Source of the DNA: a virus
Reading direction: 5' to 3' (one strand)
IMG/VR virus record: IMGVR_UViG_3300038366_000072
Span: 1-31,716 of that record
Length of the DNA stretch: 31,716 nucleotides
The notes below the pieces were generated by a model. It worked only from the letters and a program-made list of their open reading frames with translations. It was not told where the DNA came from and ran no database searches. Within the stretch, counting starts at the first letter, position 1; each line of letters starts with the position of its first letter. Positions 3,039-28,158 of the stretch are shown piece by piece. A program made the position numbers and the translations under genes.

Positions 3039-4199
3039 ATGAAAGTTTCACAACTAATCAGGTCTGATTCTAAACAGACTTTTGAGAAGGCTTGGAAGGA
3101 TCACGGTATTGAAGCCGTGAAAACTGATGGGCAGTCAGGAGTAACTGCACCTGTTCAGGATGTCCTTTCACACAACAAAGAGAAAACCCAAGAATACAAA
3201 GGAAGTGTCAGGAAGGCTGCAGCTGAAATGGCTACAAAGTCCACTATGGACTCAGGTAGGACAGAGAACTTTACTCCATTAATCTTCGATCCTGAGATAG
3301 TATCCATTCTGAAGCAGAATGCACCTGTACTTGATGTGATCCCTGAGGAAGGTCAGGAAGGATTTGATGCTGTCTACAATATTGTAGATGCACGTGATGA
3401 TCCGATTGGATACACGTCAGAAAGCGATGCTGTAGATCTTACAAACAACAGTCCTAACGGAGTCACGTTTGCTAAGGACAGTGTTGACATGACAATTTAC
3501 ACTGACTTGATTGAGATCTCAGACTTTACGCAGGAGGCAGCTGCTCACTACATGAATGTCCGTGAGACAACTCTTGGTGAGAAGGTTGCGCAGCATGCAC
3601 AGCGTAAGGCACAGCAGATCTTCTACGGTGATCCGTCACAAGATACGCAGACTGGTTTCCTTGGAGATGCTGAAGGCTTCAAAGGTCTCACAGGATTTGC
3701 CAGTGATGCAGGTAATGTCACTGATAAGTCCGGTGTCTCAACTGGATTTGTTAAGGACATTAAGTCTGTAGTCCGTGACATCAGGCAGGAGGAGAATGCG
3801 AATATCAACAATCTCAGGATTCATGTAAGCCATGAGTTCTATGATGTACTTGAGAATGAGGCTGACTTTGATAACCTGACTACTGATGCGGATACAGGTG
3901 AGCTGAATGTTGGGCTTGATGACGGAGGCCTAAGTATTGGAGGTGTTCCTGTAGTTCCGACTCACAACATTGACAGCTTCACTGATTCAGGTAACGGCAC
4001 AACGTATAATGCAGGTGATCCTGGTGATGTATTCATATTCAGTAACAGGACTGCAAGATACAGAGCGTTGCTTCCTATGTCAATGGTTCCACTTGCAAAG
4101 AACGGCTTGGCTGATACGGTTGCATTGGCTGAGTTCGGTGCTTTGATTGAGAAGTCACAGGGTAACTTTGTGAGGCATCTTCAGGCTTACAACTTCTGA
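3039..4199 (+). CDS. Major capsid protein, HK97 fold
   Basis: A 386-residue protein immediately downstream of the prohead protease, the standard position for the major capsid protein. The N-terminal 70 or so residues are charged and helix-prone, like a delta-domain or N-arm removed by the protease. The body starts near the FTPLIFDPEIVSILKQNAPV segment, a pattern I associate with capsid proteins of archaeal tailed viruses. It ends in a FGALIEKSQGNFVRHLQAYNF strand-rich tail typical of the HK97 P-domain. Codon use is richer in C and A at third positions than neighbouring genes, as expected for a highly expressed gene. Assignment rests on context and overall pattern. Confidence 0.85.
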   Translation: MKVSQLIRSDSKQTFEKAWKDHGIEAVKTDGQSGVTAPVQDVLSHNKEKTQEYKGSVRKAAAEMATKSTMDSGRTENFTPLIFDPEIVSILKQNAPVLDVIPEEGQEGFDAVYNIVDARDDPIGYTSESDAVDLTNNSPNGVTFAKDSVDMTIYTDLIEISDFTQEAAAHYMNVRETTLGEKVAQHAQRKAQQIFYGDPSQDTQTGFLGDAEGFKGLTGFASDAGNVTDKSGVSTGFVKDIKSVVRDIRQEENANINNLRIHVSHEFYDVLENEADFDNLTTDADTGELNVGLDDGGLSIGGVPVVPTHNIDSFTDSGNGTTYNAGDPGDVFIFSNRTARYRALLPMSMVPLAKNGLADTVALAEFGALIEKSQGNFVRHLQAYNF

Positions 4200-9003: not shown

Positions 9004-9611
9004 TGGTTGAACCGTTTAATACTGCGGATGATTTACAGGCTCGACTGGGTTTTCTTGGACCGAATCAAGACCAGTTTGATTTAACTGATCGTTTACTGGA
9101 TGCTACTCTGGAGTTGGAGGCTATGATCGGACGTAGTGTTCAGGAGTTGTTGACACCTAGTTTTGATGACCAGAGAGAGTTCCGTTTAACTTACAGTAAC
9201 GTGTTTGAAGTAATCAGGATTGAAATAGTTAGTCCGCATGGTACGCATCCTGAGACGGTTGACAGTTCTGATTTTACGTTGACTCACAGCCCTGAACGTG
9301 GCAATCAACAGCAGCTTGTTTTTGACCAAGTATTTGCAGAGGATCAGTTGTTTAATGAGGATTACAGGCTGCGGATTGTGTATATACCAGAACTGTATAG
9401 GCGTTTGGAGCTGCGGTTAGCTGAACTGGATATTGCTTCTTTGGCGAGTGTTCAGACTGGTGATGATCAGACTGCGGCACGTGCAGAGAAGGCAATGGAT
9501 AGAATGGATGCTTTGATGAAACGTATTAATAGGACGGAGCAGAACTTGGCAGATCCTGATACCGGGCGGAACTTGTCTCCTAACTTTAACTATCCAGGTG
9601 ACCGATTCTAA
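9003..9611 (+). CDS. Head-tail connector / adaptor protein
   Basis: 202 residues. Its position between the capsid region and the HK97 gp10-like gene is that of the adaptor (gp6/gp15-like) that docks under the portal. Helical ends (DDLQARLG...LLDATLELEAMIG at the start, RLAELDIASLASVQTGDDQTAARAEKAMD later) flank a beta region with REFRLTYSNVFEV, which fits the family. Three bases separate it from the next gene. The assignment is mainly positional. Confidence 0.7.
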   Translation: MVEPFNTADDLQARLGFLGPNQDQFDLTDRLLDATLELEAMIGRSVQELLTPSFDDQREFRLTYSNVFEVIRIEIVSPHGTHPETVDSSDFTLTHSPERGNQQQLVFDQVFAEDQLFNEDYRLRIVYIPELYRRLELRLAELDIASLASVQTGDDQTAARAEKAMDRMDALMKRINRTEQNLADPDTGRNLSPNFNYPGDRF

Positions 9612-9613
9612 GG

Positions 9614-9889
9614 ATGTTGAATCTTACTGATGAGGGCCGTAAAAAGTTGAATAATGCTGTCCGTAAAAAGGGTTTTAAGGTTGTTAGGAAGGCTAAAGGT
9701 AATGCACCTGTTGATACTGGACGTTTACGTGCAAGCATTAGTTTGGAGGAGGAGTTTTTAGGTAATGGCTTGGTGAAGGTTTTAGTCGGATCTAATGTTG
9801 ATTATGCACGTTTTGTTGAGTTTGGTACTGAGAGTCAGGTTGCACAGCCTTATTTGCGTCCTGCTTTGCGTGAGGTTGCTCAGGAGTAA
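9614..9889 (+). CDS. HK97 gp10-like head-closure / neck protein
   Basis: 91 residues with the hallmarks of the HK97 gp10 family: NAPVDTGRLRASI in the first half, and VDYARFVEFGTESQVAQPYLRP near the end. In other siphoviruses this protein sits at the head-tail interface and helps join tails to filled heads. Its length is at the short end of the family (usually 100-150) but both signatures are complete. It is followed by a T-run and a 140-base gap. Confidence 0.88.
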   Translation: MLNLTDEGRKKLNNAVRKKGFKVVRKAKGNAPVDTGRLRASISLEEEFLGNGLVKVLVGSNVDYARFVEFGTESQVAQPYLRPALREVAQE

Positions 9890-9891
9890 AG

Positions 9892-9899
9892 TTTTTTAA
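9892..9899 (+). promoter_or_regulatory. TATA-like promoter / T-run upstream of the tail genes
   Basis: TTTTTTAA follows the gp10-like stop codon, within a 20-base stretch resembling that at 8088-8107. It may drive the tail block, or the short frame at 9917. Confidence 0.4.
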
Positions 9900-9916
9900 C
9901 TGATCAAGGTAATTAC

Positions 9917-10021
9917 TTGTATTGTATTGCAGAGGAAAAGGGGTTTATCAGGACTGGGATTCGAGTGCAACTGAATCCTTCTTTTGATAAGACCACAGAG
10001 TGTAAACTTGTGGAGGATTGA
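9917..10021 (+). CDS. Possible 34-residue protein (TTG start)
   Basis: The 142-base gap between the gp10-like and tail terminator genes holds a frame beginning TTG at 9917. It would encode IAEEKGFIRTGIRVQLNPSF and continue DKTTECKLVED. The TTG is 20-25 nt below the TATA-like element at 9892, so a leaderless start is possible. The same DNA has a 6-bp inverted repeat (GGATTC 9957-9962, GAATCC 9973-9978), so a structured leader is an alternative. Composition looks like the neighbours' coding DNA. Function unknown. Confidence 0.35.
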   Translation: MYCIAEEKGFIRTGIRVQLNPSFDKTTECKLVED

Positions 10022-15832: not shown

Positions 15833-16217
15833 CGGCAGTGAGTGCGGAAGCGGCCAAGAACATTTGATCAGATCTCTTAGCGTCTGCCTACCACATCGTG
15901 CGAGGGCTTGGATACATGATTACAAAGGCTTCATGTCCAAGAATGACGGATACCTAGACTATACAGAATGGCACGTTGCTGCTTGGAGCCTGATGCTGTC
16001 AGTAGCAACATTTGCATTACATGAGTTATTTGCAGGCATCTACCTGTTGTTGACAGTACGTGTAGTAAGAGATGAGTACAGTGAGCATTCAAGCCTATCT
16101 GAGATTGATGGAGAGCTACCATACTGGTTTGGAGTCTTTATCACTTCAGCTCTGGTGTTGCAGTACCTTGGTTTAACCGCTGATTTCAGTGGTTTGGTTT
16201 CGGTGCTTGGACTGTAA
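15813..16217 (+). CDS. Two-TM membrane protein, holin candidate
   Basis: 134 residues from ATG 15813. An amphipathic, basic N-terminal third (LIRSLSVCLPHRARAWIHDY) precedes two hydrophobic segments, roughly residues 52-80 (WHVAAWSLMLSVATFALHEL region) and 105-132 (WFGVFITSALVLQYLGL region). They are joined by a charged loop (RVVRDEYSEHSSLSEIDGE). Size, topology and place after the tail genes suggest a holin-like protein, but archaeal virus holins are poorly defined. Codon use is more C/A-rich than in the neighbours. It is followed by a T-rich terminator. Confidence 0.6.
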   Translation: MSVQCSDGSECGSGQEHLIRSLSVCLPHRARAWIHDYKGFMSKNDGYLDYTEWHVAAWSLMLSVATFALHELFAGIYLLLTVRVVRDEYSEHSSLSEIDGELPYWFGVFITSALVLQYLGLTADFSGLVSVLGL

Positions 16218-16224
16218 AATATAA

Positions 16225-16244
16225 TTTTTTGTTTTTGTTTTTTT
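16225..16244 (+). terminator. T-run terminator
   Basis: Three closely spaced runs of six, five and seven T residues after the holin-candidate stop codon match the U-tract terminators used by archaeal RNA polymerase. It ends the late block before the regulatory region. Confidence 0.55.
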
Positions 16245-16270
16245 CTAATGGTTTGAGAGTGAAAGTGTCA

Positions 16271-16287
16271 TTATAACGCTGTTATAC
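16271..16287. promoter_or_regulatory. Operator palindrome 1
   Basis: TTATAAC-GCT-GTTATAC, an inverted repeat with core TATAAC-N3-GTTATA. It matches the second site at 16321-16339 apart from the spacer and the outer bases. The centres are 51 bp apart, close to five helical turns, so two dimers would bind on the same face. The nearby winged-helix proteins are the likely ligands. Confidence 0.65.
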
Positions 16288-16320
16288 TGTGGTTAAGAGC
16301 TTATTTTTTCTTCAGCACGT

Positions 16321-16339
16321 ATTATAACACTGTTATAAT
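16321..16339. promoter_or_regulatory. Operator palindrome 2
   Basis: ATTATAAC-ACT-GTTATAAT, a perfect 8-bp dyad with 3-base spacer. It ends about 7 bases before the TATA-like box at 16346, so an occupied site would cover the BRE/TFB region of that promoter, consistent with autoregulation of the gene at 16420. Confidence 0.7.
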
Positions 16340-16345
16340 TTACTC

Positions 16346-16355
16346 TTTGTATAAA
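16346..16355 (+). promoter_or_regulatory. TATA-like promoter of the first winged-helix gene
   Basis: TTTGTATAAA next to operator palindrome 2. A start about 25 nt downstream leaves a leader of about 40 nt that contains the hairpin at 16396-16417. Confidence 0.5.
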
Positions 16356-16395
16356 TGCTACCATAGAAAATAAAAAAGAAAAAAATAAAATAAAT

Positions 16396-16417
16396 TGTAA
16401 GGGTGACCAACCTTACA
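16396..16417 (+). promoter_or_regulatory. Leader hairpin presenting a Shine-Dalgarno sequence
   Basis: TGTAAGG and CCTTACA form a perfect 7-bp stem around the 8-base loop GTGACCAA, directly before ATG 16420. GGTGA, complementary to the archaeal 16S tail, spans the top of the 5' arm and the loop. The geometry could modulate translation of the regulator. Confidence 0.5.
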
Positions 16418-16419
16418 CA

Positions 16420-16686
16420 ATGACAGTTAAAATGGACGAGTTTAAAGACTTCATAAAAGTCTACGAAAACCAAGGAATAGAAAAAGTCAAGCTCAAAGAT
16501 CTCAAGAAAGCAGTCAGACACTTCTGGAATGTTGCCAGTGAACCCACGGTCAAAGACAGACTGAGTACGCTTGAAGAAGAAGGCTGGATTGAAAGAAAAC
16601 CTCACAGCGATGTGTTTAAAATAAACCATGAGCTTGATGATCCAGTGATAAAAGCCTTCAAGAATAAAGGTGTAACCGAGGAGTAA
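16420..16686 (+). CDS. Winged-helix DNA-binding regulator
   Basis: 88 residues, probably a single winged helix. Helices lie around FKDFIKVYENQG and LKDLKKAVRHFWN. A recognition helix is in EPTVKDRLSTLEEEGWIERK, and a wing ends at KPHSDVFKINHEL. The EEGWIERK turn is typical of archaeal phage and plasmid repressors. Codon use is A/C-rich, unlike the G/T-rich structural genes, so it may have been acquired separately or be an early gene. The palindromes at 16271 and 16321 lie in its promoter region, so it is the best candidate for binding them. Confidence 0.72.
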   Translation: MTVKMDEFKDFIKVYENQGIEKVKLKDLKKAVRHFWNVASEPTVKDRLSTLEEEGWIERKPHSDVFKINHELDDPVIKAFKNKGVTEE

Positions 16687-16706
16687 TAAGGCTAAAAACC
16701 TTATTA
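16684..16706 (+). terminator. Hairpin between the two regulator genes
   Basis: TAATAAGG and CCTTATTA form a perfect 8-bp stem with the 7-base loop CTAAAAA. It includes the upstream stop codon and lies just before ATG 16717. It shares AAGG...CCTT pairing with the hairpin at 16396. It may be a weak terminator or a leader element for the second regulator. Confidence 0.5.
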
Positions 16707-16716
16707 ATTATTTATT

Positions 16717-17028
16717 ATGGATAAGTCTTTGAGTGAGCAGCAGGAGATGCTTCTTTTGCAGGCGTGTAAGGAGAACGGCGGTACGTTACCTGTGTCGATG
16801 GCGGAGGGTATTTACAGTTCTAAGTCCAGCGCTAAGTCTGCGATTCAGAAGTTGAAACTTTTTGATTATATTGAGTTACGCACTCCTGGTTATTTTGAGG
16901 TTGTCAAACTTCCAAGTCATTTGAAGCAGGAGTTGAAGGAGATACAGAAGGATGACGGCACTGACGGCAGTGAAGATGATTCAAGTGAGTTTGTTGCGGA
17001 GTCGAGTAAGAGTGTTGAGGTTCCGTAA
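16717..17028 (+). CDS. Second winged-helix protein
   Basis: 103 residues. Residues about 5-65 resemble a winged helix (SEQQEMLLLQACKENGGTLP; SKSSAKSAIQKLKLFDYIEL as recognition helix and turn; RTPGYFEVVKLP as wing). The remaining third is an acidic disordered tail. Its codons are G/T-rich like the structural genes, unlike the regulator before it. The divergent leaders suggest that the two regulators are separately controlled. A partner or antagonist of the first regulator is plausible. Confidence 0.65.
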   Translation: MDKSLSEQQEMLLLQACKENGGTLPVSMAEGIYSSKSSAKSAIQKLKLFDYIELRTPGYFEVVKLPSHLKQELKEIQKDDGTDGSEDDSSEFVAESSKSVEVP

Positions 17029-17029
17029 G

Positions 17030-17038
17030 TTTCTTAAC
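17030..17038 (+). promoter_or_regulatory. TATA-like element before the structured non-coding region
   Basis: TTTCTTAAC lies about 25 nt before the first base of the long stem that opens at 17057, so initiation near 17060 would start the RNA close to its own structure. Confidence 0.35.
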
Positions 17039-17056
17039 AATCAGTTTTTTATTTAG

Positions 17057-17425
17057 TTCTTGGTAGGGTACAAGATCTACCTTAGAATTGTAGGTACGTC
17101 TACCGGGTGCCAAGGATCGTATTGCCATGTATGTGTATCTCCCAAAGATTACTGCATGGAATCTTTCCCAGTGGCCGCTCCCTTTCGTTTCATCGGTGTG
17201 CCCTTTCCCTTCGGATGCGGTCACTTAAAACAAAGTTCAAGACCGGAGGGAGAGGCACTGTTTTTCCTTACTTGGGTTTACACAAATGTTTTAAAATTAA
17301 GATGCTATAATCTTTGTGTTGAAAATCCTCCTTATTTCAGGAGGTGTTTGTAGTATCATTACCTCTGGTGATGATGAGGACTTTGGTGGATCTTGGAGGG
17401 GTTTATTACCCTTTCCAAGGTTTTT
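17057..17425 (+). ncRNA. Candidate structured RNA (or origin) in the largest non-coding gap
   Basis: The 477-base gap 17029-17505 has no convincing gene. It can fold into successive helices. A 9-bp stem, 17057-17065 with 17108-17116, encloses two hairpins (66-70/78-82 and 90-93/100-103). CCATG at 17125 pairs with CATGG at 17155 around a six-pair inner stem. A 9-bp stem AGTGGCCGC pairs with GCGGTCACT (17170/17217) with one G-U. ACACAAA pairs with TTTGTGT (17280/17313). CCTCC pairs with GGAGG (17327/17340). A final hairpin, 17392-17400 with 17409-17419, is followed by five T residues at 17421-17425. GC content is higher than in the flanks. An RNA ending at that terminator is my first choice; a replication origin is the alternative. 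No known RNA family was recognised. Confidence 0.45.
17392..17425 (+). terminator. Strong hairpin with T5
   Basis: CTTGGA pairs with TCCAAG, and GGG with CCC after a 2-base bulge, around an 8-base loop, then TTTTT at 17421-17425. It would terminate RNA from the non-coding region before the promoter at 17458. Confidence 0.6.
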
Positions 17426-17457
17426 CTACTTTCCCAACTTCCCTAACTAACACAATG

Positions 17458-17498
17458 TTTATAAACAAGTAATAGTAATTGGTGGTTGGGAGATACAC
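17458..17498 (+). promoter_or_regulatory. Duplicated promoter-leader element, copy 1
   Basis: A 41-base block with the TATA-like TTTATAAAC at one end and TTGGGAGATACAC at the other, ahead of ATG 17506. Apart from a few bases it equals 21134-21174, which precedes another small gene. GGGAG is a Shine-Dalgarno-like site, so these two genes have a short leader rather than being leaderless. The two transcription units are probably co-regulated. Confidence 0.7.
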
Positions 17499-17505
17499 TT
17501 TGAGA

Positions 17506-17676
17506 ATGACAAACGAGCAGCTTAATGCTGCATCTCCGGACAACATCGCTGCAGAAAACAGCAAGGATAAAATCACGGAGAAAACACTGACATCTTTGGC
17601 ACGTAAGTCAGACGGCTGGAAACAGGAATTACTTTCTACAGCTGCCGAAATAGTTAAACAGGAGGCAGATAATTAA
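17506..17676 (+). CDS. Small helical protein, first gene of the small-gene operon
   Basis: 56 residues from ATG 17506, chosen because it follows the GGGAGATACAC leader and because the frame upstream overlaps the promoter element. It is acidic and helix-rich (DKITEKTLTSLARKSDGWKQ). No cysteine or membrane segment; not recognised. Its stop codon shares an A with the next ATG, the first of a chain of tiny overlapping genes. Confidence 0.6.
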   Translation: MTNEQLNAASPDNIAAENSKDKITEKTLTSLARKSDGWKQELLSTAAEIVKQEADN

Positions 17677-17789
17677 TGACTTTACGTGAGATCTGCAAGA
17701 TTGGCAGGACGTATGAGTCGATGGCGATTGAGTCAAGTCAAGGCCAGTACACAATCAAGTTCGGCAGTTATGATGGAGGTGATGATTAA
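17676..17789 (+). CDS. Tiny hypothetical protein
   Basis: 37 residues (MTLREICKIGRTYESMAIES...) joined to its neighbours by one-base TAATG overlaps at both ends. The beta-prone ending (GQYTIKFGSYDGGDD) suggests a small folded domain. Not recognised. Confidence 0.5.
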   Translation: MTLREICKIGRTYESMAIESSQGQYTIKFGSYDGGDD

Positions 17790-17914
17790 TGAATGGTTAC
17801 AAATGTTGTAAAGGATCTACAGCTGATGGTCATTGGGTAGATTGTCCTCGAGCAAGACAAGCCGATGCTCTTGAACGTATTGCAGAAGCTCTTGAAGATA
17901 TAGCTGATGAATGA
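17789..17914 (+). CDS. Tiny cysteine-containing protein
   Basis: 41 residues. The N-terminus has YKCCKGSTADGHWVDCPRAR, three Cys and one His that could bind zinc. A short amphipathic helix follows (ADALERIAEALEDIADE). It overlaps the upstream gene by one base. A small zinc-binding adaptor or DNA-associated protein is possible; not recognised. Confidence 0.55.
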   Translation: MNGYKCCKGSTADGHWVDCPRARQADALERIAEALEDIADE

Positions 17915-18079
17915 ATGAAAGTTTATGTGATTATTTTCGACTGTGCAAAGCGTGGATGCAACCGTTTTGTAGAAGTATTCAGAAGCAGAGAGGGAGCTGA
18001 AGAATACATGAAGCAAGGAGATCTTAGCAAAAGTTATTATAAAATTACAGAGAAAGAGGTGATGGACAGTGAAGTCTAA
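17915..18079 (+). CDS. Small basic/acidic mixed protein
   Basis: 54 residues (MKVYVIIFDCAKRGCNRFVE...). A first strand, a helix (SREGAEEYMKQG) and a final strand (SYYKITEKEV) suggest a compact beta-alpha-beta fold. Two cysteines occur. It starts directly at the stop of the upstream gene and overlaps the next by 11 bases. Unknown function. Confidence 0.5.
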   Translation: MKVYVIIFDCAKRGCNRFVEVFRSREGAEEYMKQGDLSKSYYKITEKEVMDSEV

Positions 18080-18509
18080 TGTTCGTGGCAAGGTTGCTGC
18101 TTTGAAGCCTAAGCCTGCAGAGGATTATTTTAACATTGCTTTGGATGATGCTGGGCGTGATGAGAACTGGTATATCGGGGACGGCAGTATTACGGATCAT
18201 GTTGATTCCTTGAGTGAGGGCACGCAGGTTGTACTGGATTTTAATAACGAGTCTGTTGTAGGTATTAGCAAGGTGAATGAAGACGCATCGGGCGTGTCTA
18301 GTGGTGGAGAGTCCTTGGGGGAGGGGCAGGAAAGCTCTCCAAGCCTTACTAAGTCTAAGCAGGAGCGTATTAAAGTTCAGACTGCGTTTAAGAAGGCGGT
18401 GGATCAGGTTGACCGCCGGAGTTGTGAGACCAAGGAGGATTACCGTAAAATGGTGAAGGAATTGACCGTGATCCACAGCAAGGTTTTAGATGAGGTGATG
18501 ATGGACTGA
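18069..18509 (+). CDS. Uncharacterised protein with a possible OB-like N-domain
   Basis: 146 residues from GTG 18069. Residues 1-70 are beta-rich (VRGKVAALKPKPAEDYFNIA, GTQVVLDFNNESVVGISKV), recalling an OB-fold or small beta barrel. This is followed by a Ser/Gly/Glu linker and a charged helical end (ERIKVQTAFKKAVDQVDRR). A DNA- or RNA-binding role would fit the early-gene location, but nothing specific is conserved by eye. It overlaps both neighbours. Confidence 0.6.
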   Translation: MKSNVRGKVAALKPKPAEDYFNIALDDAGRDENWYIGDGSITDHVDSLSEGTQVVLDFNNESVVGISKVNEDASGVSSGGESLGEGQESSPSLTKSKQERIKVQTAFKKAVDQVDRRSCETKEDYRKMVKELTVIHSKVLDEVMMD

Positions 18510-18679
18510 TGGGAATAGATTATGAGTCTGAGTACAGCAGCGTTGTAGAGATCAACGGTGATCGTTACCTAGTTCAGGGTGATAGTGATGATGAGATCTG
18601 GATGTTCCGTGATATAAACGAGTTACTGGAGTGTGAGCGTGATAATGTCCAGGCGATGTTAGGTGAGAAGTATGACTGA
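18509..18679 (+). CDS. Small acidic hypothetical protein
   Basis: 56 residues, start overlapping the upstream stop by one base (TGATG) and end overlapping the next gene by 8 bases. Beta-rich first half (SSVVEINGDRYLVQGDSDDE), helical second half. Not recognised. Confidence 0.5.
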   Translation: MGIDYESEYSSVVEINGDRYLVQGDSDDEIWMFRDINELLECERDNVQAMLGEKYD

Positions 18680-19010
18680 TGTGATTTTTGATGCCTCAGA
18701 TAATGACGGCAGTGATGAGGGCAGTGTTGCGGATACGAGTAAAGCAGCTTACCGTGATTTGAAGGAGTCGGGTGAGTTGGCGGATCAGGCTGAGAAAGTA
18801 TACGAGGCTTTGAGGGCGATGCCGTATGCAGCAGTAACATACAATGAATTATCTAATGAGACGTTGGCTGGCTGGGAGAAGTCCACGATCACTGGTAGAA
18901 TCAATGACTTGCAGGATCATGGATTAGTTGAGTTTGCTGGTAAGCGTCCTGACATGTATACTGGTCGTAAGTGCAAGACTTGGATGCCTGTAGGCGGTGA
19001 TGAAGACTGA
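18672..19010 (+). CDS. Winged-helix DNA-binding protein
   Basis: 112 residues from ATG 18672. After an acidic N-terminus, residues about 40-110 form a winged helix. Parts are EKVYEALRAMPYAAVTYNEL, a recognition helix in EKSTITGRINDLQDHGLVEF, and a wing with RPDMYTGRKCKTW. The SGRINDL...GLVE...TGRxxxxW pattern occurs in virus- and plasmid-encoded replication or regulatory proteins. The gene lies among the early genes before the nuclease, and no other replication factor is recognisable, so a role in replication initiation or early control is possible. Confidence 0.72.
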   Translation: MTDVIFDASDNDGSDEGSVADTSKAAYRDLKESGELADQAEKVYEALRAMPYAAVTYNELSNETLAGWEKSTITGRINDLQDHGLVEFAGKRPDMYTGRKCKTWMPVGGDED

Positions 19011-19354
19011 GGCGTGGTGACACCTTTTTCGTTTTATTTTTTGTCTTAATTACTACGGTGTCGGGTGTTGCGGTTCATGAATACACACATTTTTACTTGT
19101 TTCAGGAGGCTGGATGCAGTACAGATTTGAATGTTTTGAGTGAGGGTGATCCTGAGACTGGTTTGGCGGCTGCATCGGTTGAAGCTCATTGTAATGGTAC
19201 TGCGGAAGAGTTGCAGAGGTTGGATCAGACTCAGAGCATGGTAGAAAGTGTTGGCTATCAGGTCTTGCCGTTGTATATGTTGCTGGGTTTGATGTTAGCG
19301 CTTACAATCATCAATAGGCAGCCAAGGAGAAGGCGGAGGCGTGATGTTGTATGA
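19007..19354 (+). CDS. Membrane protein with an HEXXH metalloprotease motif
   Basis: About 115 residues if started at CTG 19007, which overlaps the upstream stop; a GTG at 19058 would give 98. The frame between the two encodes an obvious membrane segment (TFFVLFFVLITTVSGVAV) that leads straight into HEYTH, so the upstream start is preferred although it is non-standard. HEYTH is a zinc-protease signature; a later DPETG or AEAH-like region (SVEAHCNGT) may supply the third ligand. A second membrane segment (LPLYMLLGLMLALTIIN) and an Arg-rich end follow. It may be a small membrane metalloprotease; activity is unproven. Confidence 0.55.
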   Translation: MRRGDTFFVLFFVLITTVSGVAVHEYTHFYLFQEAGCSTDLNVLSEGDPETGLAAASVEAHCNGTAEELQRLDQTQSMVESVGYQVLPLYMLLGLMLALTIINRQPRRRRRRDVV

Positions 19355-19791
19355 TTGACTGGGGTGATGCTGTTGAGCGTTTGGAGAGTCATGAGGACAG
19401 GGTGGATTCTCTAGGTGCGTCTGCTTCAGGTCGTTACATCCATAGTCTGCTTGAGTCGGAGTATGGTGATGTTCCGGGCTTGAGTTTTGAGGAGGAGGTA
19501 AGTGGTGGCCGTGCTGACTGTATCGGGGAAGATTATGTGTATGAGTTTAAGACTAAGAACTGGTTTAACATGGGTGAGGCTCCGTTGGAGGATGATATGC
19601 GGCAGTTGCAGAGGTATTTGAACAGTAGTGATGTGGATGTGGAGCAAGGTCAGTTGGTGTATATTAACCGTGATGATTTTGGGCAGGTCAGGCAGTTTGT
19701 TTTTGAGCCTGAGTATAATACGGATTTTATCAGTGATGGTGGTTTACCTGATTTCAGTGAGTACAGTGTCTATGAGGTGGAGGATTTGTGA
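19351..19791 (+). CDS. PD-(D/E)XK nuclease, Cas4/RecB-like
   Basis: 146 residues. The catalytic core is GGRADCIGEDYVYEFKTK, giving D, then E-x-K in the order of the PD-(D/E)XK fold. A QxxxY motif (QLQRY) follows about 40 residues later, as in RecB and Cas4 nucleases. A helical N-terminus (GRYIHSLLESEYG) supplies the early conserved region. The four iron-sulfur cysteines of true Cas4 are absent. Small viral Cas4-like exonucleases are used for end processing in replication or recombination, or against host DNA. The start overlaps the HEXXH gene by 4 bases (ATGA) and the end overlaps the zinc-finger gene. Confidence 0.78.
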   Translation: MIDWGDAVERLESHEDRVDSLGASASGRYIHSLLESEYGDVPGLSFEEEVSGGRADCIGEDYVYEFKTKNWFNMGEAPLEDDMRQLQRYLNSSDVDVEQGQLVYINRDDFGQVRQFVFEPEYNTDFISDGGLPDFSEYSVYEVEDL

Positions 19792-19946
19792 GGTTGTTGC
19801 AGCGTTTTCTTAGGGATATTGAGCAGGTGTACTGGTGTAAAAGATGCGGTGACCGCCTTAAGTCGTTGGAGAAGGCTAAAGTCCATGTTAAGAACAGGTG
19901 CAGTGAAAACAGTGATAGTGGTCAGGAATCCCTTAACTTTATTTAA
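19788..19946 (+). CDS. Small zinc-finger protein
   Basis: 52 residues from GTG 19788, overlapping the nuclease by 4 bases. VYWCKRCGDRL with KVHVKNRC gives C-x2-C and H-x5-C, a single C2HC-type finger. The N-terminal helix (LLQRFLRDIEQ) may pack on it. The coupling to the nuclease suggests a DNA-binding partner. The stop lies inside the TATA box of the terminase promoter. Confidence 0.65.
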   Translation: MRLLQRFLRDIEQVYWCKRCGDRLKSLEKAKVHVKNRCSENSDSGQESLNFI

Positions 19947-19948
19947 AA
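19942..19948 (+). promoter_or_regulatory. TATA-like promoter of the packaging genes
   Basis: TTTAAAA centred 25 nt before ATG 19970, a leaderless arrangement. It overlaps the stop codon of the zinc-finger gene. Confidence 0.5.
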
Positions 19949-19969
19949 CAGGATACTGTATTAAGTAGT

Positions 19970-20446
19970 ATGACAGGGCTGACCCAGAGAAAAGCTGCAC
20001 GTATGGAAGAGGCTGCCAAGCTCAAATGGGGTGAGGACTTGACCCATGAGGAGATAGCAGACGAACTGGATCTTGCTCACAGCACCATCGACCAGTATTT
20101 TAGCAGTGATCATATGGAGAAGTTTCAAAGGATTTTCACTGATATGGGGCGTTTTGAGTTGCAGCGTGTTTTGGAGCAACAGTTGTATGATATTGAGCAG
20201 GAGGCTGTTCAGAAGATTAGGGAGGCTGCTAATGATCCTGAAAGCACTGCTTCGGATCAGATCCGTGCTGGTAAGGAGTTGATGAATGTTGTTCGTAGGA
20301 AGTTGGAGATGCTTCAGCAGCTTGGAGTGGTTGAGAAGCCGAAGGAGCGTAGTAAGGTTGAGACTGGTGCTGATACTGATGAGTTACGTGAGGAACTGGT
20401 TGAGGGTTTGCAGACTAAACGTGAGGAGTTGATGTCTGAGGAATGA
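19970..20446 (+). CDS. Small terminase-like protein
   Basis: 158 residues. A helix-turn-helix lies at about residues 17-45 (LKWGEDLTHEEIADELDLAH, STIDQYFSS). A long helical oligomerisation region follows (RVLEQQLYDIEQEAVQKIRE, QIRAGKELMNVVRRKLEMLQ), with a charged C-terminus. This is the layout of small terminase subunits that recognise the packaging site. The large subunit is encoded 1.65 kb downstream, separated by eight small genes, rather than adjacent. The end overlaps the next gene by 4 bases (ATGA). Confidence 0.75.
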   Translation: MTGLTQRKAARMEEAAKLKWGEDLTHEEIADELDLAHSTIDQYFSSDHMEKFQRIFTDMGRFELQRVLEQQLYDIEQEAVQKIREAANDPESTASDQIRAGKELMNVVRRKLEMLQQLGVVEKPKERSKVETGADTDELREELVEGLQTKREELMSEE

Positions 20447-20715
20447 AGGATTACAAGCCTAGGGAGAAGCGGAAGCGTTATGGTGAGTTTACTGTTGTTG
20501 AGAAGTTGTTGCCTCCTTTCTTGAACTATATTGTTAGGAAGATTGTCTTGGGCTTGGTTGTGGTGTTGTTGACGGTTTCCAGGGTTTTATCCGGTTTGTT
20601 TGACTTCAGTATTGATGCCAGTGTAAGCGATAGAGATGAGTGGATTTGGCTGGATGATAAGGAGCTGCCTGTAGTGACTTTGGATAGTAAGAAGGTTAAT
20701 ACTAAATCGGAATAG
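20443..20715 (+). CDS. Small single-TM protein
   Basis: 90 residues. A basic N-terminus (MKDYKPREKRKRYGEF) precedes one hydrophobic stretch at about residues 25-50 (FLNYIVRKIVLGLVVVLLTV), and an acidic tail follows (SVSDRDEWIWLDDKELPVV). A membrane protein with the positive end inside. It is coupled to the small terminase by overlap. Its function is unknown; an accessory lysis or envelope-associated role cannot be excluded. Confidence 0.6.
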   Translation: MKDYKPREKRKRYGEFTVVEKLLPPFLNYIVRKIVLGLVVVLLTVSRVLSGLFDFSIDASVSDRDEWIWLDDKELPVVTLDSKKVNTKSE

Positions 20716-20730
20716 ATTTATGTCTTTGGT

Positions 20731-20898
20731 ATGACTCCTCGTCAGCGGCAGTATAAACGTGTGTTGGATGATTTGGTGTTGCGGTTGACGTTGTGGTGGA
20801 TCACTTCTGGATGGCGGCCTGAATGGAGTATAACTAGACGTGAGAAGGTTAGGCGATCTAATGCAGAGGCTGTAAATAGGTTGAGACAAGAGTTATAA
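20731..20898 (+). CDS. Small basic protein
   Basis: 55 residues (MTPRQRQYKRVLDDLVLRLT...), unusually basic and Trp-rich (LWWITSGWRPEW) for this acidic proteome. Helical throughout. The basic character suggests nucleic-acid or membrane contact. Not recognised. Confidence 0.5.
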   Translation: MTPRQRQYKRVLDDLVLRLTLWWITSGWRPEWSITRREKVRRSNAEAVNRLRQEL

Positions 20899-20905
20899 CT
20901 TGTTA

Positions 20906-20918
20906 GGACAAATTGTCC
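20906..20918. promoter_or_regulatory. Short perfect palindrome GGACAAATTGTCC
   Basis: A 13-base inverted repeat (GGACAA-A-TTGTCC) in the 23-base gap before ATG 20922. It differs from the TATAAC/GTTATA operators, so it would be a site for another protein; chance occurrence is possible. Confidence 0.35.
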
Positions 20919-20921
20919 AGT

Positions 20922-21122
20922 ATGGTTGATGATGTAGATGATAATAGGCGTAGAATCAGCACTGAGTTATTGAAGGAGATTGAGGGTTTTGATGGTAAGG
21001 ACTTCAGCGAGCAGCTTTTGAAGTGGAAGAGTGATCTGGACAGTCTGTCCAGTAATGAGTTGGAGTCGGTTGTGCGTAGAGTTGTGCAACAGGAGCTTAG
21101 TGATTATACGGAAGGTCGATAA
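20922..21122 (+). CDS. Small acidic helical protein
   Basis: 66 residues from ATG 20922 (preferred over a TTG three codons earlier that lies inside the palindrome). A charged helical sequence (RRRISTELLKEIEGFDG, NELESVVRRVVQQELSDY). No recognised domain. Ends before the second promoter-leader repeat. Confidence 0.55.
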   Translation: MVDDVDDNRRRISTELLKEIEGFDGKDFSEQLLKWKSDLDSLSSNELESVVRRVVQQELSDYTEGR

Positions 21123-21133
21123 GTAACAAAGTA

Positions 21134-21174
21134 TTTATAAACGTGTAATGGTAAGTGGTTCTTGGGAGATACAC
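21134..21174 (+). promoter_or_regulatory. Duplicated promoter-leader element, copy 2
   Basis: Second copy of the element at 17458-17498: TATA-like TTTATAAAC, then a GTAAT block, a GGT stretch, and TTGGGAGATACAC just before ATG 21176. The middle is conserved as well as the boxes, so more than TATA and ribosome-binding functions seems to be selected. Confidence 0.7.
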
Positions 21175-21175
21175 A

Positions 21176-21304
21176 ATGAAAGAGTTTAACCCGAGATGGG
21201 AGTTCTACAAGTACGATGAGGTAGACGGTACAAAATACTTCAAAGACCCTGAAACCGGCAAGGTTTACTGGGAATCAAGTAAAGGAGGATGGATAGAAGC
21301 ATGA
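21176..21304 (+). CDS. Tiny Trp/Tyr-rich protein
   Basis: 42 residues (MKEFNPRWEFYKYDEVDGTK...). A beta-hairpin-like pattern with YFKDPETGKVYWE and a WIEA end, rich in aromatic residues. It is the first gene after the second promoter-leader repeat. Its A/C-rich codons differ from the neighbours, as in the early regulator at 16420. Unknown function. Confidence 0.5.
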   Translation: MKEFNPRWEFYKYDEVDGTKYFKDPETGKVYWESSKGGWIEA

Positions 21305-21387
21305 ATCCTGATAATCCGATCACCAGGCTTTTTGAGGATATTTATGACGTGGATATGGTAAACCTTAGGAAAGGTGATGTTAGATGA
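21301..21387 (+). CDS. Tiny hypothetical protein
   Basis: 28 residues (MNPDNPITRLFEDIYDVDMV...), overlapping the upstream gene by 4 bases and the zinc-ribbon gene by 4 bases. Coupling on both sides argues for translation; it may mainly serve to pass ribosomes along. Confidence 0.4.
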   Translation: MNPDNPITRLFEDIYDVDMVNLRKGDVR

Positions 21388-21653
21388 ATGCCTCTAAACA
21401 AACTGTTTCATGTTTTGCCTGTGATTCAGAGACAGATTCAGGCAAACACAAACAAGGAGAGCCACTTTGCCAAAAATGCTTTGACATCAGCGAGAAGTTT
21501 GAGGAGCATGGTTACAGCTATCTTTACGGCAGATTATCTGAGAGAGTTAAAGCTGCTGAAAGATACAGTGGGAATGTAGAGGTATTGTTTGAGCAGGAAA
21601 AAAGGCTTGGTAAAATACAGGATCTTGTGATTGAAGGTAGGACCAGTGATTAG
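21384..21653 (+). CDS. Zinc-ribbon-like protein
   Basis: 89 residues. SCFACDSETDSGKHKQGEPL followed by CQKCFD gives two C-x2-C knuckles about 15 residues apart, a zinc ribbon. The rest is helical (RLSERVKAAERYSGN, EVLFEQEKRLGKIQDLVIE). Zinc ribbons of this kind in viruses often bind nucleic acid or transcription factors. The start overlaps the 28-residue frame. Confidence 0.65.
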   Translation: MNASKQTVSCFACDSETDSGKHKQGEPLCQKCFDISEKFEEHGYSYLYGRLSERVKAAERYSGNVEVLFEQEKRLGKIQDLVIEGRTSD

Positions 21654-21756: not shown

Positions 21757-22104
21757 ATGGATGAGAAAATGAGTGATGAGGACTTGAAACAGGATTTGTT
21801 GAGTGGTTTGACGATCAGTGAGGTCACTGAGAAATATGGTTACAGTGATGAATCTCATGTGGCTAAGCGTAAGACCGAGGCCAGTTTTGAGTTACGGGAG
21901 AATACCAAGTTGGCGTTTTTGAATCGTGGCGGAGCCAATATCTATTTTTCCAAGTCTATTGTAGATGACTTGTTGGATGCGGCAGATCTGGATAAAACTG
22001 ATGATGTTTTTGTACATAAGGAGTTGGTGGACGGCATGGTCTGCATGAGTTTCACAAGCCAGAGATACACTGAGAAAAACAAAGAGGAGGTGCGTGAAAG
22101 TTGA
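21757..22104 (+). CDS. Helix-turn-helix protein before the large terminase
   Basis: 115 residues from ATG 21757. Residues 12-40 (DLLSGLTISEVTEKYGYSDE and following) look like a helix-turn-helix. The second half is beta and helix mixed (GANIYFSKSIVDDLLDAADL, TDDVFVHKELVDGMVCMSFT), reminiscent of an AbrB-like or swapped-hairpin domain, but not clearly so. The last codons overlap the terminase start and contain its ribosome-binding site. Confidence 0.6.
   Translation: MDEKMSDEDLKQDLLSGLTISEVTEKYGYSDESHVAKRKTEASFELRENTKLAFLNRGGANIYFSKSIVDDLLDAADLDKTDDVFVHKELVDGMVCMSFTSQRYTEKNKEEVRES
22086..22092 (+). promoter_or_regulatory. Ribosome-binding site that fixes the terminase start
   Basis: GGAGGTG, a full match to the archaeal anti-Shine-Dalgarno, lies 8 bases before TTG 22101 and 20 bases before the alternative ATG 22113. 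The spacing favours the TTG start. Confidence 0.6.
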
Positions 22105-23555
22105 GTGAGTTGATGCAGGCTGTAAAAACCAGTGACATCGGTGATGTTACTAGGTCGTTGTTTGATGTTGATTTGTATCCGACCCAGGAAATGATAGTCC
22201 GTGATATTGGCTTAGGTCTCGAGCGCAGGATGATTGTTAATACTTATACGCAGTATGGTAAGTCTTTCAGTATTGGTGTGGGTTTGGCGCTGCGTATTCT
22301 CGGCAGCAGTGAGTCTTTGGATATTGGTTTGCTTGGACCGTCTAAGTCGGATGGTCGGAATGTCCGTGATGCTTTGTTGGAGGCTGGTTTGGAGAGTGAT
22401 TTGTTCCGTGATTTGATTGATACTGGTGCGGGCGGTGATCCTGATGATCTTCTTAAGTCTGCTAGTAAGGATGTTTTGACTTTTGATGATGGGCGTGTCC
22501 GTGTTGAGGTTATGTCCGCTGCCTCTGGGAGTAGTGGTAAGGGTTCGGGTTTGATGGGTTCTGGCGTGGATTTGTTGGTGATGGATGAGTCTAACAGGGT
22601 GCCGGAGTCGGTTTGGCGTGATGCTGGTGATCGTTTGTTGAATAGTTATGACAGTGTCTTGGTTGAGGCTGGTAATCCAAGGCATCAGGGCAACCAGTTT
22701 TTTGAGCATTTCCAGGATCCGATGTTTAGGAAGTATCATGTCGGCGAACATAGTCTGGATGAGTATGGTGATGCTGTGTTGCCGGAGAACTGTCATACTG
22801 CTTCGGGTTTGGAGGAGGGTAGGCATGGTAAACGGTTTTTTGATGAGAAAGCAGGTAATGTCGGAGGCCGAGATAGTGTCCGTTATACTTGGAAGTACAA
22901 AAGTGTGTTTCCTGATGAGGTTGAGGGCGGTCTGTTTAGTTCAAAGTGGCTGCGTCAGGCACAAGATCTTCATCACTTTATTGATACAATGGAGAGAGAG
23001 GTTCGTTATGGTTTGGATGTTGCTGGTATGGGAGACGACTTGATTGTACTGACTAGAACTTTGTATTATGAGGGAAAGTATTTTTTGACTGATCAATGGT
23101 GTCGCAAACGTTCTTCTGATACGCGTGAGACTGCTGATTGGGCCGATAGTTTAGTTAAGGATGATATTGATAATATAAGTCAGTTTGTTGTTGATTATAC
23201 TGGTATCGGTGGCGGCGTATGGTCGGCACTAAAGCAGATGGGTTACAGTCCTACCAAGTTTAAGGCAGGTGAGTCACCGGATGCGGAAAGTGATAAGTAT
23301 GTGAATAAGAAGGCTCGTAATTACTTCAAACTTAGGGATATTTTACAGGATGGTGACATGGCTATAGGGAAGGGTTTTGAGAACCCTGACATGGATATGC
23401 CGTCTAATAAATTGATGTATGAATTGGGTCATATTAGACGGGAGCCGGGGCGGCGTGATAAGGATAAAGTGGTTGATCCTGATGACGGCAGCCCTGACTT
23501 TGCTGATAGTTTGATGATGACTGTTTACGAATCTAACAGAGGTTTTGTGTTATGA
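22101..23555 (+). CDS. terL: Terminase large subunit
   Basis: 484 residues. It is the ATP-driven DNA packaging motor with its nuclease. ATPase: a Walker A variant TQYGKS at residues 50-55, and Walker B VDLLVMDES at 156-164 with catalytic E163. Nuclease (RNase H-like): YGLDVAG with D306, VVDYTGIG with D365, and PDFADS with D469, in the expected order. Length matches the family. The TTG start is favoured by the upstream GGAGGTG. It overlaps both neighbours by 4 bases. Confidence 0.95.
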   Translation: MSELMQAVKTSDIGDVTRSLFDVDLYPTQEMIVRDIGLGLERRMIVNTYTQYGKSFSIGVGLALRILGSSESLDIGLLGPSKSDGRNVRDALLEAGLESDLFRDLIDTGAGGDPDDLLKSASKDVLTFDDGRVRVEVMSAASGSSGKGSGLMGSGVDLLVMDESNRVPESVWRDAGDRLLNSYDSVLVEAGNPRHQGNQFFEHFQDPMFRKYHVGEHSLDEYGDAVLPENCHTASGLEEGRHGKRFFDEKAGNVGGRDSVRYTWKYKSVFPDEVEGGLFSSKWLRQAQDLHHFIDTMEREVRYGLDVAGMGDDLIVLTRTLYYEGKYFLTDQWCRKRSSDTRETADWADSLVKDDIDNISQFVVDYTGIGGGVWSALKQMGYSPTKFKAGESPDAESDKYVNKKARNYFKLRDILQDGDMAIGKGFENPDMDMPSNKLMYELGHIRREPGRRDKDKVVDPDDGSPDFADSLMMTVYESNRGFVL

Positions 23556-25179: not shown

Positions 25180-28158
25180 ATGAGTGGCGATTTTATATCT
25201 TTGAAGGATTCTGAGAGTAAGGCAACTATCTCCGGTATCGGTGGACGCTCCACGCAGGGTATCAAGGGTGCTAAGTCCAGCGTGTTTTACAATGATTCTA
25301 TGGATGGTGAGCCAAGGCATGATGACCTGTTCGCAGTACGTTTGCTGGGGCGGACTGGTTATATTGAGATGGCTAAGGATATTATCAAGGATCAGGTTGC
25401 ATCTACGGATTTCCATGTGAAGCCTATGATCCCTGAGGGCGTGGATCGTGAAGTATCTAGACGGGAGCAGGATGCGGCTGATGCCATGACACAGTTTTTC
25501 AACGGAAACTTCAATACTGATAATCAAAGTTTTGATCATTTGCTGAAAGCGGTTTTGAATGATGTCTTGGATTTTAACACGGCCTGTATTGAACTGGTGT
25601 CTGATGATGATGGCTACCTGCAAGAACTGTTGGTTAGGGATGGCTTGACTTTTACTAAGAATGTTAAGGATGTTGGTAAGTTACCAAGTCCTGGTAGTGA
25701 TGATCCGGCGTATTACCAGTTTAGTTTGTCAAGTCAGGCTAAACAGTTTTTCAGGAGTGATCGTGAAGGTATTGACATCCGTGATATTACCAGTGAACTT
25801 GGTAGCATGGGTTTCAATAAGGTTTTCAGCCGAGATACCCGGAAGTTTAGCCGTGATGAATTGGCGTGGTTTGAACTTGATAATCGTACTGGTGCGGCGT
25901 ATGGACGTGGTAAGACGCAGAAGGTTAAGAAACAGGCTGAGAACTTGATTAACGGTGATGTTCATAGGACACGGTTCTGGAATGATAATGAATACCACAA
26001 GGGTTTCCTGAATGTACCTGAGACCATGAGCCAGAACCAGCAGCAAAAACTTAAGGAGCGGTTTCATGGTACCGCTGGAGATGAATACGAACTACCTATT
26101 ATCGGTGCGGAGGATGCTGATTACGTAAGTATTGATCCTAATCCTGAGGAGATGCAGTTCCTTGAGAGCCATAAATTCTTCACTAAATTATCGCTCAGTA
26201 TCTATGGTTTGAATCCTAATGAGGCAGGTTTTGTAGAAGATAGCTCCCGGAACGTCAGTGAGCAGCAACAGAAGAATGTCTGGAATCGTACTACGCAGCC
26301 AACCTTAGAGATGATTGAACGTGTGTTTACGAATCAGATCTTGCCGTTTATGCGTGAGTATGATGCGGTTGACATTGATTTTGAGTTCTGTTTCAAGCCT
26401 CAGAATGACTTTTTAGAACAGATTGAGAATGAGATGATTGAGCAGGAAGAGTCAATAGGTACTTTGACTTTGAATGAGGCACGTGAGCGTAAGGGTAAGG
26501 AAGGGTTTGGTGAGATCGGTGAGTTGCCTAAGGAGGCGTTTGACAGTTTGGCTACTCAGAATCCGGGTTTTGTTGCTGAGAAGTTTGGTATTGAGGATGC
26601 GCCGCAGAATGAGCCGGGTGGCGGTCCGTTGTTTGGTAACAGCTACAACAATAACGACAACGATAACAATGATGATGCTACGGACAATGGTGATGTAAGA
26701 GATGGCGATGACAAAGATGGACGTGAAAGAGAATACGGAGAAGGAGATCGACAAAACTATAATACGGATACAGAAGTAAAGGATAAAGCTGTTGAGGATG
26801 TTGATTTGACTCCTCCTGATTTTGTTGTTCATGCTGCGGAAACAGCCTTGGAGAAGAAACAGGAGTTCAGTGATGAGGTAGGTGACTGCGGTACAGGTGT
26901 AGGAGAAGATCGTGCCAAGAAGATTGTTAATGATAATTTAGAGCCTGAGGATTTTTTAGGTGGTGAGAATACTGCGATACCTGATTATCTGGAGAGCCAT
27001 GAGGAGGATGTAAACGGTCTTAACAAGCCTGTAAGTGAGTGGACTGATGATGACTGGACTGGTAGATCTGTCTCGAGTGATGGTAGTCCTCGTTGTGGTC
27101 CTGTTCAGTATGCGTTGTGGGGCGGCCAAAGTACAGGTGAGTCTTTAGAGTGGGCTAACGGTACAGAACAGGAGCTTCAAGATGCCATGGAGGATGAGGA
27201 GCAGGATAGTGTAAAAGAAAGTAACGGAGGTGTCCGGGATCAAAGCACCTCCTCAAGTATCAGTGGTTACCGCAGTGCTTTCAAGAATGTTGATGCTGTC
27301 TTGGAGATGACTAAGGATGCTTTGCGTAATCAGCATGGTTTTGATGATGTGGACGGTGTTGTAAGCCAGAAGGAAGATCTTAAGCATGATGTTGCTACTG
27401 TTTTTGAGTCCATCCAGTTAAGGGATATGGTGGAGGAGGAGTTTCCTGAACAGAAGCAGGATAGTGAGTTACTTGTTGATGCTGATTCTGTTTTAGATAG
27501 TGTTGGTTTCCGTGATCGTTTGGCATCTGTTTTGGAGTCACGGAATTTGGAGACTTTGGAGTTATCGGCGGAGCATCATAAACAGGATATTGAAAGTGAG
27601 GCGGAGGAGCGTTTGAATGTTCCTAGTGAGGTCAAAGTTGAGCTCGGTTTTGATGTTTTTGATACGTTTACAGCTGATAAGATACGGGAGGAGGCGTTGC
27701 GCAATGCTACTGTAATAGAATCAAGTGTTAAGGACCGTTTGCGGAGGGAGTTGTTGGATGCGGCGGAGGCTGGTGAGGGCATACCTGATGTTATGGATAG
27801 GGTTCAAAAGGTGCAAAGTGATATAAGTGATAGTCATGCGGAGCTAGTGGCTCGGACTGAGACTTTATCAGCCAGTCGTAAGGGAAGTCAGGCATTAGCA
27901 GAGTCTACGGACTTGGTTGGTGGCAAAGAATGGATTGCTACCAGTGATTCAAGGGTTCGTGAGTGGCATAGGGTGATGGATGGGACTGTTGTGGAGAAGG
28001 ATGATGTTTTTACTGTTCCACAGGTCTCCGGCAGCAAAGGTTTGTCACGTAAAGAGGCTGATTCACGTATTGACCTAGAGTTTAAGAAGGAGAAACTGGA
28101 TTTGATGAGTAAGAAGAAGCGTTTGTTAGATGACTTGGTTGATGAGGAGGCAGGTTGA
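25180..28158 (+). CDS. Portal protein fused to the front part of a MuF domain
   Basis: 992 residues. Residues about 1-450 are the portal: N-terminal SSVFYNDSMDGEPRHDDLFA, the central DFNTACIELVSDDDGYLQEL, and FFTKLSLSIYGLNPNEAGFV typical of phage portals. An Asn/Asp-rich linker lies near 485-520. A small domain at about 545-650 (CGTGVGEDRAKKIVNDN, ending in RCGPVQYALWGG) resembles a module often found in phage head proteins. The helical front of the MuF domain follows (HAELVARTETLSASRKGSQA, GKEWIATSDSRVREWHRVMD). After FTVPQ the expected end with NCRC is replaced by a basic coiled tail. That end is encoded at 811-1128. Confidence 0.9.
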   Translation: MSGDFISLKDSESKATISGIGGRSTQGIKGAKSSVFYNDSMDGEPRHDDLFAVRLLGRTGYIEMAKDIIKDQVASTDFHVKPMIPEGVDREVSRREQDAADAMTQFFNGNFNTDNQSFDHLLKAVLNDVLDFNTACIELVSDDDGYLQELLVRDGLTFTKNVKDVGKLPSPGSDDPAYYQFSLSSQAKQFFRSDREGIDIRDITSELGSMGFNKVFSRDTRKFSRDELAWFELDNRTGAAYGRGKTQKVKKQAENLINGDVHRTRFWNDNEYHKGFLNVPETMSQNQQQKLKERFHGTAGDEYELPIIGAEDADYVSIDPNPEEMQFLESHKFFTKLSLSIYGLNPNEAGFVEDSSRNVSEQQQKNVWNRTTQPTLEMIERVFTNQILPFMREYDAVDIDFEFCFKPQNDFLEQIENEMIEQEESIGTLTLNEARERKGKEGFGEIGELPKEAFDSLATQNPGFVAEKFGIEDAPQNEPGGGPLFGNSYNNNDNDNNDDATDNGDVRDGDDKDGREREYGEGDRQNYNTDTEVKDKAVEDVDLTPPDFVVHAAETALEKKQEFSDEVGDCGTGVGEDRAKKIVNDNLEPEDFLGGENTAIPDYLESHEEDVNGLNKPVSEWTDDDWTGRSVSSDGSPRCGPVQYALWGGQSTGESLEWANGTEQELQDAMEDEEQDSVKESNGGVRDQSTSSSISGYRSAFKNVDAVLEMTKDALRNQHGFDDVDGVVSQKEDLKHDVATVFESIQLRDMVEEEFPEQKQDSELLVDADSVLDSVGFRDRLASVLESRNLETLELSAEHHKQDIESEAEERLNVPSEVKVELGFDVFDTFTADKIREEALRNATVIESSVKDRLRRELLDAAEAGEGIPDVMDRVQKVQSDISDSHAELVARTETLSASRKGSQALAESTDLVGGKEWIATSDSRVREWHRVMDGTVVEKDDVFTVPQVSGSKGLSRKEADSRIDLEFKKEKLDLMSKKKRLLDDLVDEEAG

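Follow-up and report, generated by a model that had tools for sequence, protein, structure and literature searches.

We consider it narrowly probable that the largest intergenic gap of this virus genome encodes a structured plus-strand RNA, a trans-acting antisense regulator that masks the ribosome-binding sites of several of the virus's own operons. Judging from the sequence, this RNA probably binds two viral mRNAs at their 5' leaders and helps to time the infection.

The virus genome and its largest intergenic gap

The analyzed window, that is, the whole stretch of DNA considered here, comprises all 31,716 bases of the virus record. Its ends (1-300 and 31482-31716) are near-identical, with a few differences; hence, the genome is probably a complete one of about 31.5 kb, either circular or with redundant termini. 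Because the major capsid protein resembles its counterpart from Halorubrum tailed virus 28 (31%; Suolaviridae) and the viral proteins are acidic (median pI 4.66, n=35), the host is likely to be a haloarchaeon or a similar halophile. One protein, encoded at 5645-7567, consists of many near-identical repeats (VNGVSLSSDFLAVGS...YVYDTTNFNLQ) and looks propeller-like by eye.

The gap (17029..17505, plus strand) lies between the gene 16717-17028, which has no family match and is HTH-like by eye, and the small gene 17506-17676. At 477 nt it is indeed the largest non-coding gap, as the preliminary description had it, the next largest gaps between likely genes being 202 and 197 nt. Further upstream, the region 16218-16419 contains the palindrome TATAACRCTGTTATA in two copies, located 5' of the winged-helix-like gene 16420 (which has weak HTH matches), and a 7-bp leader hairpin TGTAAGG/CCTTACA that spans the Shine-Dalgarno region; from these features, both seen by eye, it looks like an autoregulated control region.

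Several conventional contents of the gap were considered and rejected. A protein-coding gap was rejected on the basis of its open reading frames, whose products have pI 8.9-11.4, far from the viral median, and have no Pfam or PHROG match. This agrees with the earlier observation that the gap encodes no protein of the acidic type, and the conserved protein that would have contradicted a non-coding reading was looked for in these databases without a match. An Rfam scan of the whole window, proposed in the same description, yielded no match at the curated gathering threshold; six weak matches (E 2.4-7.3) were far below it, so that a known RNA family was rejected as well. A tRNA in the gap was also rejected.

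The predicted fold of the whole gap is stable on the plus strand (-146.3 kcal/mol, z -3.9, with one of 100 shuffles equal or better), the minus strand having z -3.3. In a stability scan of 422 windows of 150 nt on both strands, four consecutive plus-strand windows over and around the gap scored -2.65, -2.65, -4.21, and -3.03. The first two of them (16970-17119 and 17120-17269) had -0.18 and -0.61, respectively, on the minus strand, and the window 17270-17419 (plus strand) was the third most stable of the scan. The two windows that outrank it are coding, 3620-3769 in the capsid gene (z -5.35) and 25670-25819 in the portal gene (z -4.8); thus, stability alone is not unusual in this genome and proves little.

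The candidate RNA and its complementarity to two mRNA leaders

The first part of the gap (about 17057-17265, plus strand) is best interpreted as a structured RNA in its own right. The candidate non-coding RNA occupies 17057..17268 (plus strand), with an uncertain 5' end (17057 to about 17075) and a 3' end at the T5 run 17261-17265. Its transcription may start at a putative promoter with the weak TATA-like stretch TTTTTTATTT (17045..17054, plus strand) or result from read-through from the gene 16717-17028, these two origins being equally possible. The preliminary description had placed a TATA-like box 25 nt upstream of this RNA's first stem. A box can be recognized, albeit a weak one, and the spacing fits only partly: the T6 run of the weak stretch (17045-17050) nearly touches the stem, and it is TTCTTAAC at 17031 that lies about 26 nt away from it.

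Both 9-bp stems noticed earlier were recovered. The 5' helix (17057..17065 with 17108-17116, plus strand) has two G-U pairs; other local hairpins compete with it when the fold is predicted. The other stem, with one G-U pair, is helix A of a predicted pseudoknot (17170..17178 with 17217..17225, plus strand). Helix B (17198..17214 with 17243..17258, plus strand; 16 bp with one bulge) crosses it, and the T5 run follows 2 nt after its 3' strand. The crossing helices were searched with our own script over 17120-17268 with simple built-in loop limits; the loops of the resulting H-type pseudoknot, 19, 2, and 16 nt, are within these limits. The summed stacking of -43.7 was attained by none of 300 shuffles, whereas the minus strand is ordinary for crossing helices (39/100). 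Three G-U pairs in the pseudoknot helices would be A-C mismatches on the opposite strand. A nested alternative fold uses the same 3' strand and competes with the pseudoknot, which therefore is a prediction rather than a proven structure.

A second stable stretch, 17310..17428 (plus strand; z -4.1, 0/200 shuffles), contains the final hairpin with a T5 run of the preliminary description, the hairpin being at 17392-17419 and the run at 17421-17425. This stretch may be an extension of the candidate RNA or a second RNA. Both T-runs of the gap are only T5. A target for 17269-17430 was sought among the viral gene starts; the best match, 10 nt at 15530, is not distinctive.

Like the crossing helix, the antisense segment of the candidate RNA had escaped the preliminary description. 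This segment, TGTGTATCTCCCAA (17132..17145, plus strand), is the exact complement of two mRNA leaders, of leader 1 (TTGGGAGATACAC, 17486..17498, plus strand) over 13 nt and of leader 2 (TTGGGAGATACACA, 21162..21175, plus strand) over 14 nt, and the match spans the Shine-Dalgarno region. In the repeat search, 17132-17145 and 21162-21175 emerged as the two halves of a perfect inverted repeat of 14 nt. Leader 1 lies at the predicted transcript start upstream of the ATG at 17506, where the first gene of operon 1 begins (17506..17676, plus strand; 56 aa, no family match). Leader 2 is immediately 5' of the ATG at 21176, the start of the first gene of operon 2 (21176..21304, plus strand), which stands ahead of the genes for terminase (22101-23555) and portal (25180-28158). 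The two operons share the TATA box TTTATAAAC, at 17458..17466 and 21134..21142, respectively (plus strand), as part of a repeat. Both leaders start about 28 nt after the TATA box and end before the start codon; at this distance from the box, the mRNAs should begin with them. In HF2 promoters, the TATA box begins at -26 (PMC8707807).

The complementarity is distinctive when measured by exact matching. The longest exact complements of the candidate RNA on the plus strand of the genome are the two leaders, followed by matches of 10 nt; among 46 gene starts the leaders are first and second, and the next has 9 nt. Shuffled RNAs reached the match to leader 2 in none of 3000 cases and that to leader 1 in one of 3000, and of 596 real genome windows, none reached it apart from those on the RNA and those antisense to the leaders themselves. 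Thus, complementarity at these translation starts exceeds the chance level, and it is weaker if ranked by energy only. When gene starts are ordered by duplex energy alone, the targets take positions 2 and 8 of 46 (two of the 46 start positions being one base off, which leaves the matched segments unaffected), 11990 is first, and leader 1 is equalled by 126 of 2000 shuffles. With opening costs included, the two targets take the second and third places among 50 gene starts, and 11767 is first.

When up to two mismatches are allowed, TTGGGAGATACAC has three sites in the window, all of them exact, although at least three such sites are also found in 7 of 100 shuffled windows; among all 13-mers of the genome, the combination of two direct copies with one in inverted orientation is unique to that of the leaders. 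Beyond the match, the flanks of the inverted copy agree with those of the leaders in 5-7 of 25 positions, whereas upstream of the two leaders 19 of 25 positions agree with each other. Hence, promoter DNA was not copied along with the segment. An inverted promoter copy on the minus strand was rejected, as inspection by eye shows no TATA box at the distance that it has from the leaders, and the flanks are at the chance level. The candidate RNA is encoded about 4 kb from leader 2 and is thus trans-encoded with respect to it; the predicted RNA and both targets lie on the plus strand at separate places, so this is not cis-antisense of the phiH Tant type.

In the predicted fold, the antisense segment occupies the loop and the 5' arm of a hairpin (17125..17159, plus strand), whose apical CCCAA (17141-17145) is fully open and costs 0.00 kcal/mol to open. 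Opening of the whole segment would take about 6 kcal/mol, compared with about -23 to -25 for the duplex.

These features suggest the following mechanism. An RNA of about 190-210 nt, perhaps extended to 17425, would be formed, with the pseudoknot before the T-run forming and protecting its 3' end. The hairpin loop CCCAA would pair with UUGGG at the extreme 5' end of the two viral mRNAs, and from there the duplex would extend into the 5' arm until it comprises 13-14 bp and includes the Shine-Dalgarno-like motif GGGAG beside the start codon. Translation of the operons from 17506 onwards and from 21176 onwards, the latter including terminase and portal, would then be blocked, or the duplex would be cleaved, as reported for phiH1 (PMC8707807). 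Either effect would end when the RNA becomes dilute, has been consumed, or is switched off. Since operon 2 runs into the terminase and portal genes, an RNA made early could hold back packaging and head genes. What the sequences show directly is the complementarity and its position, the potential for a pseudoknot, the shared leaders, and their virus-specific counterpart in one relative; transcription of the RNA, its pairing in cells, and the direction and timing of its effect are inferred.

The corresponding region of a related virus

The comparison is based on one informative relative, a single record of 34,055 bases that contains the region (L016 reverse complement, or L006). Its capsid protein and terminase match those of our virus at 57% and 51%, respectively, and its genes around the gap follow the same order: the gap again lies between the ortholog of gene 16717 and operon 1, with one extra gene on each side. 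The promoters before the two orthologous operons again share a box and a leader, in other letters (TATAGAAGGTAGAA..). A third copy of the shared promoter and leader precedes an extra gene module between the portal and protease genes (L006:7095-8164), as if the leader travelled with modules joining the regulon. Upstream of the relative's regulatory genes there is also an AT-rich stretch of 450 nt with no likely gene, for which a strong fold is predicted (L016 reverse complement, 9512-9962; -112 kcal/mol).

The gap of the relative contains TTCTACCTTC, a match that was first spotted by eye and tested afterwards. It is complementary to the relative's own leader 1 over 10 nt and, when extended by one letter, to its leader 3 over 11 nt, which shuffles reached in 13 and 5 of 3000 cases, respectively. 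In a set of 860 windows, all other instances of the 11-nt match lie on the antisense strands of the leaders, and the 10-nt match has two additional chance sites. Leader 2 pairs contiguously over just six positions (reached by 2690 of 3000 shuffles), or over 13 by eye if G-U pairs and a bulge are allowed. With opening costs, leaders 1 and 2 are outside the top seven rows, whereas leader 3 takes the sixth place, via another segment. A pseudoknot with loops of 16, 1, and 23 nt, similar to those of our virus, is predicted directly before a T7 run; it is only modestly unusual (10/300 shuffles), with the minus strand equally so (4/100), and the plain fold of the candidate is ordinary (z -1.18).

The gap sequences of the two viruses have no alignable letters, and between the viruses the RNA and the leaders are complementary over just 5-8 nt, compared with 13 and 14 nt within our virus and 10, 11, and 6 nt within the relative. 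Thus, at the level of sequence, the complementarity is virus-specific, and the relative seems to retain the arrangement in other letters. A broader hypothesis, which we put forward tentatively and hold to be somewhat short of even, is that in a group of archaeal tailed viruses one pseudoknotted trans-acting RNA controls several operons through a common 5' leader at each promoter, the leader and the RNA changing together, so that each virus would have its own timing or immunity switch.

Other searches added little to this comparison. Among viral and genome contigs, L003/L005 and L004 are near relatives that do not have the region, L017 contributed one distant terminase, and L007 one remote match. 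No useful homolog was found by the DNA search against phages, for protein 16717 against phages, or for the terminase against plasmids (two remote matches). The leader DNA matched phages only at E above 1, and the gap compared with records L004-L007 gave only weak chance-like matches, in a record of 305,865 bases. In HRTV-28 (L018), the shared-leader and inverted-copy pattern is absent when searched with 13-mers, and by eye the annotation contains no comparable gap.

Alternative explanations and known antisense systems

An unlikely alternative is that TTGGGAGATACAC is a DNA operator bound by a viral regulator at position +1 of two promoters, with an inverted third copy, the structured RNA being unrelated. 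It is favored by two genes of weak or presumed HTH character (16420 and 16717) just upstream and by the repeated promoter modules of HF2, which are thought to bind viral proteins and whose conserved gamma motif includes the transcription start (PMC8707807); a regulator and its operator would also change together between viruses, producing the same pattern in both. However, on the strand of the third copy no TATA box stands at the distance seen for the leaders, this copy forms part of an RNA hairpin (its loop and arm) inside a fold specific to the plus strand, the match begins exactly at the expected transcript start, and the HF2 gamma motif is reported only within the repeats (PMC8707807). Quite unlikely, in our estimate, is a structured RNA with another job, such as a host-directed sRNA, a packaging or replication RNA, or a stable 3' UTR of the upstream operon, with an incidental or minor antisense match. 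The stable structure across the whole gap, including 17310-17428 with no target found there, and the poor energies of the relative's leaders would agree with it, but it leaves unexplained the exact match to the 5' ends of two leaders, given how rarely shuffles reach it, and the different, virus-specific match in the relative.

The complementarity between 17132-17145 and 17486-17498 could also be intramolecular: a read-through transcript would pair these 13 nt and close the start of 17506, the gap being a cis-acting 5' region of the attenuator or switch type. The shortness of both T-runs, just T5, would permit such a transcript. Nevertheless, the longer match is to the leader 4 kb away, leader 1 has a strong TATA box of its own 3' of the folded part of the gap, two T-runs are in between, and in the relative a complete gene separates the RNA from leader 1; we therefore regard this explanation as improbable. 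The preliminary description had offered a viral non-coding RNA or a replication origin. The former part is supported by the strand-specific pseudoknot, the lack of a coding signal, the terminal T-run, and the complementarity to two mRNA starts. A large, folded non-coding region would suit an origin too, but in the proposed cumulative GC-skew check all windows are positive and the curve never turns, no iteron array was found in 16200-21400, and G-U pairs in the helices fit RNA rather than DNA, so that an origin is highly improbable here.

A trans-acting antisense RNA, the explanation we prefer, has partial parallels. The CI RNA of the satellite phage P4 is a small phage RNA that pairs with leader segments of phage transcripts and acts mainly through transcription termination, on one operon. 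Our candidate would resemble it in pairing with leader segments and differ from it in these last respects. The c4 antisense RNA of phages P1 and P7, a structured RNA, acts around the ribosome binding site of an mRNA of the same phage and prevents its translation (PMC12197685). The likeness includes a phage-encoded structured RNA directed against the phage's own mRNA, with the complementary segments in loops (PMC12197685). Unlike c4, which belongs to bacterial phages and has one mRNA target, the candidate belongs to an archaeal virus and would address two separate operons with a common leader, and three leaders in the relative.

In archaea, Methanosarcina sRNA162 masks a ribosome binding site in trans via an unstructured segment (PMC3510493); it is chromosomal and has an additional cis-encoded target, and the portion of its description available to us mentions neither a pseudoknot nor a shared-leader regulon. 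Haloarchaeal virus antisense RNAs, namely, Tant of phiH1 and the asRNAs of HFTV1 (PMC8707807, PMC6210493, PMC12542753), are counter-transcripts opposite their targets, whereas the candidate is encoded elsewhere and pairs by 13-14 nt. The class I intergenic repeats of HF2 are similar in that a promoter module recurs and is conserved in a segment where transcription starts; they have seven copies, and the conserved segment is reported only inside the repeats and presumed to bind protein (PMC8707807). A search of open-licence papers listed no archaeal virus with a trans-acting RNA of its own. Relative to these sources, c4-like action, archaeal trans-acting sRNAs, and haloarchaeal counter-transcripts are already known; an antisense RNA that an archaeal virus encodes separately and directs at a shared leader did not appear in that search.

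Antisense control in haloarchaeal viruses has so far been described, in the accounts cited above, as counter-transcription opposite the target. If the proposed mechanism is true, it would add trans-acting RNA regulation to the life cycles of archaeal viruses and would explain the repeated promoter leaders in such viruses. It would also provide a search rule for further cases, that is, shared leaders together with one inverted copy in a structured intergenic stretch.
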